From a candidate division WOR-1 bacterium RIFOXYB2_FULL_46_45 (GTDB lineage Bacteria > Margulisbacteria > WOR-1 > XYC2-FULL-46-14): a stretch of DNA of 64,000 nucleotides. The translations under genes and the position numbers were made by a program. The stretch spans positions 412,744 to 476,743 of the forward strand of contig MEUE01000001.1 in NCBI GenBank assembly GCA_001771585.1, given 5' to 3'. Shown piece by piece: positions 55,103 to 55,334 of this stretch; the stretch's first letter is position 1, and every line of letters starts with the position of its first letter. Under the pieces are notes generated by a model. That model did no database searches. It worked only from the letters and a program-made list of their open reading frames with translations, and was not told where the DNA came from.

Positions 55103-55334
55103 AATAGTCCCGAATTTTTATCTCAAATCAACCTCTCAAATCAATGCGAATAGGGCCGGTCCCGAATTAAGGACTCGAATGCTCGAATCGATTCTCGAAC
55201 CCTTTCAAGCTTCGAGATTAAATTCGAGGATTTGGGACTTTTATTTGAGACCCTTTCATTCGAATTCATTCGGGATTATTGATTTGCGATAAGAATTCGA
55301 GTCTTCTTTCACTACTCCCAGCAATTTTGCCGCC
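55103..55334 (-). mobile_element. MITE-like internally deleted, inverted copy of the GxxExxY unit
   Basis: Reverse complement reads left end (..ctcgaag) fused to right end (ttgaaagggttcgag..); about 377 bp of gene body missing. Confidence 0.8.

Follow-up and report, generated by a model that had tools for sequence, protein, structure and literature searches.

The window analysed here is a 64,000-nucleotide stretch of contig MEUE01000001.1 (positions 412,744 to 476,743, forward strand; assembly GCA_001771585.1) from the candidate division WOR-1 bacterium RIFOXYB2_FULL_46_45. Within it, the gene of an NtrC-type response regulator is flanked by two related palindromic units: E1, which carries a gene of the GxxExxY family, and E2, which holds no ORF. 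The features of the locus, in window coordinates, are the following:

52704..53237, minus strand: recO (TIGR00613, 5e-30)
53256-53872, plus strand: E1, the gene-bearing unit
53261..53279, plus strand: sigma-54 promoter-like site (pattern matched with 1 mismatch), lying just beyond the E1 left arm
53289..53386, plus strand: E1 left arm (gapped alignment)
53398..53805, plus strand: E1 gene, GxxExxY protein with a PD-(D/E)XK nuclease fold, 135 aa (TIGR04256, PF13366)
53763..53872, plus strand: E1 right arm (gapped alignment)
53889..53907, plus strand: predicted sigma-54 promoter of the response regulator (pattern match, suggestive of autoregulation)
53939..55096, plus strand: NtrC-type response regulator, 385 aa, without the C-terminal Fis-like DNA-binding part
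55019..55099, plus strand: first copy (A) of an 81-nt direct duplication that brackets E2, at the regulator gene 3' end
55099..55112, plus strand: weak terminator-like feature, a small hairpin GGGAATAGTCCC followed by GAATTTTT, 3 nt past the regulator stop
55100..55340, minus strand: E2, palindromic element without a gene, with its sigma-54 promoter (homology to the E1 arms, 376 bp of gene body missing)
55100..55209, minus strand: E2 right arm, array of ATTYGNGA, the reverse complement of the left-arm motif
55210..55307, minus strand: E2 left arm, array of degenerate TCNCRAAT (gapped alignment and motif reading)
55317..55335, minus strand: sigma-54 (-24/-12) promoter-like site TGGCGGCAAAATTGCTGGG (GG-N10-GC), pointing into E2, antisense to the regulator gene
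55352..55432, plus strand: second copy (B) of the 81-nt duplication, which extends into the end of the patatin gene
55413..56186, minus strand: patatin-like phospholipase gene, convergent with the regulator

The initial annotation described E2 as a gene-less, inverted copy of the GxxExxY unit, and both gapped alignment and an inverted-repeat search bear this out. In the alignment, E1 53256-53386 corresponds to E2 55340-55210 on the minus strand (93-100% piecewise, 97% across the main 98-nt block) and E1 53763-53872 to E2 55209-55100 at 92%, the two arms being 92-97% identical overall. The extent first given, 55103-55334, was essentially right, although the element is slightly larger (about 55100-55340); the absence of the gene body is confirmed, at exactly 376 bp (E1 53387-53762, comprising the RBS and gene body) rather than about 377 bp. 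The opposite orientation of E2 and the presence of the GGCGGCAAAATTGCTGGGAGTA end (55317-55335, minus strand) also stand. The inverted-repeat search returned the same pairs for E1 and E2, 138 nt at 91% and 109 nt at 93% complementarity, and the arms of E2 pair into a long hairpin of -92.8 kcal/mol (RNA fold z-score -6.7), so that the hairpin potential raised earlier proved strong. Terminator-like hairpins in the E2 region number 2 against 0.7 expected, the match at the E2 edge, a hairpin with a T run, being weak (5 pairs), and an Rfam search of 51000-57500 gave no match.

E2 differs from E1 by scattered substitutions and is therefore not a recent copy of it. Its closest match is a solo copy, L003 (94%), with E1 second at 93%, in agreement with the earlier view of an older or independent copy. 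A chance origin is excluded because independent genomic copies match E2 with E-values down to 1e-81 in a DNA search of its own genome, and because of the fold z-score. An assembly artefact is likewise unlikely, given that copies lie at about 19 places with differing flanks, on three contigs and at 55-95% identity.

These copies form a family. A sequence-profile search, with a profile built from 14 copies, located about 19 distinct loci of a palindrome of about 200 bp in the host genome (1.70 Mb, 4 contigs), and a direct DNA search with E2 recovered many of them, the best at 92-95% identity. The count of solo and gene-bearing copies called for by the initial annotation yields one gene inside the arms, one copy upstream of a second GxxExxY gene and about 17 solos. 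The genome encodes three GxxExxY genes, and E1 alone has this arm type around its gene; the copy just upstream of the second is a weak match (C1:678243). The palindromes share a left-arm array of TCNCRAAT and a right-arm array of ATTYGNGA. Subfamily A (E2, E1 and their closest copies) has the short apex CTCGAA[GA]CTTGAAAGG, and the subfamily B solos have an apex of the CCTCCCC..GGGGAGG type. No palindrome match was found in a DNA search of 30 relatives, all from other genera, which argues that the arm type is restricted to this genome and its near relatives and that amplification was local to the lineage. Exact-pattern scans for the right end across 85,488 species genomes and viral contigs returned no homologous element; the sole match, in Anaerolineae, is apparently coding sequence without an array.

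All 15 palindrome copies examined lie at gene 3' ends, 6 in convergent, 9 in co-directional and 0 in divergent arrangements, most of them 0-55 nt from the stop codon. One solo follows directly on a 5S rRNA gene, identified by eye, at the end of an rRNA operon (G000:C4:24161-24321, L198). Flanking direct repeats accompany 3 of the 15 copies: 81 nt at E2, 31 nt at E1 (overlapping the promoters) and 19 nt at L004, where a perfect repeat of the end of the right-hand, dapB-like gene flanks the palindrome (L004:1449-1467 and 1709-1727). The other 12 have none at a score limit of 20, which corresponds to 95% of mismatched left/right pairs, and there is no target duplication of constant length. No one mechanism explains the three duplications.

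The history of the locus can be read in part from the relative G001, in which the regulator has 468 aa including the Fis-like C-terminus, is followed directly by the patatin gene and, on another contig, adjoins recO with its start. The same gene order without E1 or E2 implies that recO-regulator-patatin is ancestral and that the regulator is a resident, not cargo. Between recO and the regulator, G001 has an inverted array of the unrelated motif TATAGG (L080:180-295, z -3.9), and this spacer has therefore received such arrays independently. Since the last 81 nt of the 385-aa form occur on both sides of E2, truncation of the regulator predates the duplication; the shortened protein may activate from solution, by analogy with H. 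pylori FlgR. Copies A and B are 86% identical, and 8 of 9 differing codons are synonymous. Such divergence would fit recombination with a related chromosome, an old duplication being the alternative. A diversity-generating retroelement was considered and rejected, given that the changes show no specificity for A and most of them are synonymous.

The GGCGGCAAAATTGCTGGGAGTA end had been taken as the terminus of the element, a reading that is not supported. GGCGGCAAAATTGCTGGG fits a sigma-54 -24/-12 promoter (GG-N10-GC), RpoN is encoded in the genome, and the pattern occurs genome-wide at about 20 near-identical sites, or 27 at up to three mismatches, versus 1 for the reversed pattern. Most of these sites adjoin unrelated genes, and a promoter outside the left arm is confined to E1 and E2 and does not accompany the other solos. 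The genes downstream encode the response regulator, a ComEA-like SLBB+HhH protein, SSB, TatD and UPF0102/YraN, as well as KilA-N, several ORF6N and S23 proteins (multicopy accessory genes) and a Y1 transposase; a PilB/GspE-like ATPase, named from sequence only, begins 16 nt after a site. Possibly, the sites mark a DNA-uptake regulon that also includes accessory mobile genes. Across the class of the source bacterium, sigma-54 sites lie upstream of 12 of 39 GxxExxY/S23 genes in sense and of 0/39 in antisense orientation, with a background of 5/318; at GxxExxY loci of other lineages, no upstream sigma-54 site was found.

In sum, E2 is a gene-less palindromic repeat that lies where a gene ends; we consider it probable, if well short of certain, that it is non-autonomous, acts as a hairpin and arrived by recombination. 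It is made up of an array of a degenerate 8-mer and its inverted counterpart (TCNCRAAT / ATTYGNGA), jointly able to form one long hairpin, and E1 is the same palindrome with a GxxExxY gene at the apex. This is the architecture found for GxxExxY genes in general, with inverted arrays on both sides of the gene and, in the class of the source bacterium, frequently a sigma-54 promoter beyond the left arm. At present, E2 is predicted to provide a 3'-end hairpin between the convergent regulator and patatin genes, probably as a terminator or a processing site (RNase III). Its arrival was probably by recombination with a related chromosome and not by cut-and-paste transposition; recombination is preferred because the 81-nt duplication has diverged and target duplication is not general. 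As a guess, the GxxExxY nuclease could work on these palindromes in trans.

This architecture extends far beyond this genome. Inverted arms of a locus-specific motif exceeded all 60 shuffles at 38 of 40 testable GxxExxY loci, compared to 2 of 80 matched controls taken from the same loci; the positives comprise 18/18 testable loci in the phylum and 20/22 in other lineages. A z-score above 6 was reached at 33/40 GxxExxY loci versus 0/80 matched controls, and at least four copies of one 6-mer in inverted register were present at 33/40 loci versus 12/116 controls. S23 loci behave similarly, with inverted arms at 16 of 21 and at 0/42 controls. The arm motif varies by locus (CACGAATT, CGCTAATT, ATCCCGG, ACACAAAG, CCACAGAG, CGCAGATT, AGGGTC). 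Separately, short tandem repeats of AAAGTGC and of the ATCGGGAT type were seen in the coding region of an rsmH-like gene (L012:1749-2573). We found no account of inverted arrays flanking GxxExxY genes in the literature searched; the nearest are papers on 23S rRNA intervening sequences, or IVS (PMC4990558, PMC11270868). The GxxExxY family inside its mirror-image repeats appears to represent a class of mobile elements that has received little description.

The likeness to IVS leads to an alternative that we regard as possible, yet clearly the less probable account: the hairpin could be selected as RNA, transcribed from sigma-54 promoters and excised by RNase III, as in the S23-bearing 23S IVS. 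The palindromes do form long, stable hairpins, E1 has its ORF in the loop of an inverted-repeat stem, as do IVS with the S23 four-helix-bundle ORF (PF05635, TIGR02436), and S23 genes of the source bacterium's class have the same inverted arms. The Coxiella IVS, in which RNase III excises the sequence and heptamer repeats precede the S23 ORF (PMC4990558), also counts for this reading, and the short tandem motifs beside the ORF and the sporadic distribution are further points of resemblance. Against it, the two variable motif positions show no covariation between the arms: at position 3, Watson-Crick pairs number 21 against 27 expected, at position 5, A.C outnumbers G.T by 19 to 11, A.C mismatches thus being at least as common as G.U, and the RNAalifold covariation term for the palindrome copies is just 0.07. 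For this reason, inverted motif arrays are a more apt description of the palindrome than a conserved RNA fold. A few spacer pairs do flip on both sides between subfamilies A and B. What is conserved in the arms may be the DNA motifs and not an RNA; helical phasing of the motif was rejected, since the spacings read from the sequences (about 8-16 nt) are not constant. In addition, the palindromes are intergenic (E2 between regulator and patatin) and none lies within an rRNA, the E1 ORF encodes a PD-(D/E)XK nuclease, ORF-less solos dominate and a sigma-54 promoter is present, all unlike 23S IVS.

The term MITE-like, applied to E2 at the outset, holds as a description of short, palindromic, non-coding, dispersed and multicopy elements. 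That the solos are true MITEs, that is, derived by internal deletion from E1 as the gene-bearing master and moved in trans by its GxxExxY nuclease or by some other transposase, seems unlikely to us, although a fair number of features speak for it. The family is short, palindromic and non-coding, with about 19 loci, and its one gene-bearing member has near-identical arms; the E1 gene is a clear member of its family (TIGR04256, 1.3e-27, 96.5 bits against a curated cut-off of 35; PF13366 PDDEXK_3, 9e-27) that keeps the D...ExK-type residues of PD-(D/E)XK nucleases. A uniform apex junction, common to all subfamily A solos, fits one deletion followed by spread. In the copy tree, however, the E1 arms are nested inside the subfamily A solos (93% to E2, 92% to L003) and are not basal, with modest support of 0.7-0.9 and the remaining solos more divergent. 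The second solo subfamily has a different apex, and no solo copies were found in G007 of the ATCCCGG arm type, the only other arm type tested. MITEs also differ in having consistent target duplications, termini set by short TIRs rather than a palindrome over the whole element, and a DDE or HUH transposase; here, the partner that shares its arms with the solos encodes a predicted PD-(D/E)XK protein.

The nesting bears on the earlier claim that the gene was excised from E2. Because E1 is nested among solos that share one apex junction, the gain of a gene by E1 appears at least as likely as its loss from E2, and the claim of excision is not upheld. Insertion of a gene into a solo palindrome would be one event explaining the nesting, the shared junction and the end of the ORF in the right arm, which contains the stop and last residues of the E1 gene. 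One old deletion from which the solos later spread is a possible history, but E1 would then be expected at the base of the tree.

REP/BIME/REPIN sequences with their RAYT (Y1) transposases resemble the palindromes as dispersed extragenic palindromes at gene 3' ends, and the host genome encodes a Y1_Tnp protein whose gene shares the sigma-54 promoter (G000:C1:697234-697252, L045). REPs are, however, 20-40 nt long, whereas the palindromes span about 200 nt and contain their motif many times over. The product of this IS200-like gene is a possible hairpin mobiliser.

It is very improbable that TCNCRAAT serves as a Neisseria-like DNA-uptake signal, with inverted pairs placed where genes end: the pairs do sit at gene 3' ends and sigma-54 sites precede the ComEA, SSB, PilB/GspE-like and TatD genes, but outside the elements the window shows no excess of the motif (20 observed, 22 expected). 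The composite-transposon geometry suggested initially, with inverted E1 and E2 carrying the regulator between them, is rejected as scarcely credible, given that G001 has the same gene order without either unit, neither E1 nor E2 carries a transposase, the duplications beside the two units are not alike and 12 of 15 copies lack direct repeats.

Beyond the locus, we offer a tentative and rather doubtful extension, namely that GxxExxY and S23 genes define a class of small mobile elements found throughout bacteria, with solos that amplify, sigma-54 wiring to DNA uptake and spread by transformation. If so, each element would be a palindrome of arrays of its own motif around a small ORF, E2-like solos would amplify without the gene, and the encoded nuclease or four-helix protein would recognise its own motif array. 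In this lineage, expression of the elements would coincide with DNA uptake, and the intervening sequences of 23S rRNA would be a particular instance of such elements. Two wider questions are concerned: what GxxExxY proteins do, and where the S23 intervening sequences came from. The flank test provides a testable clue that GxxExxY proteins belong to palindromic elements whose motif differs between loci, the sigma-54 link suggests when GxxExxY and S23 genes are expressed, and the E1/E2 pair, together with about 17 solos in one small genome, constitutes a natural system for studying how palindromes multiply.
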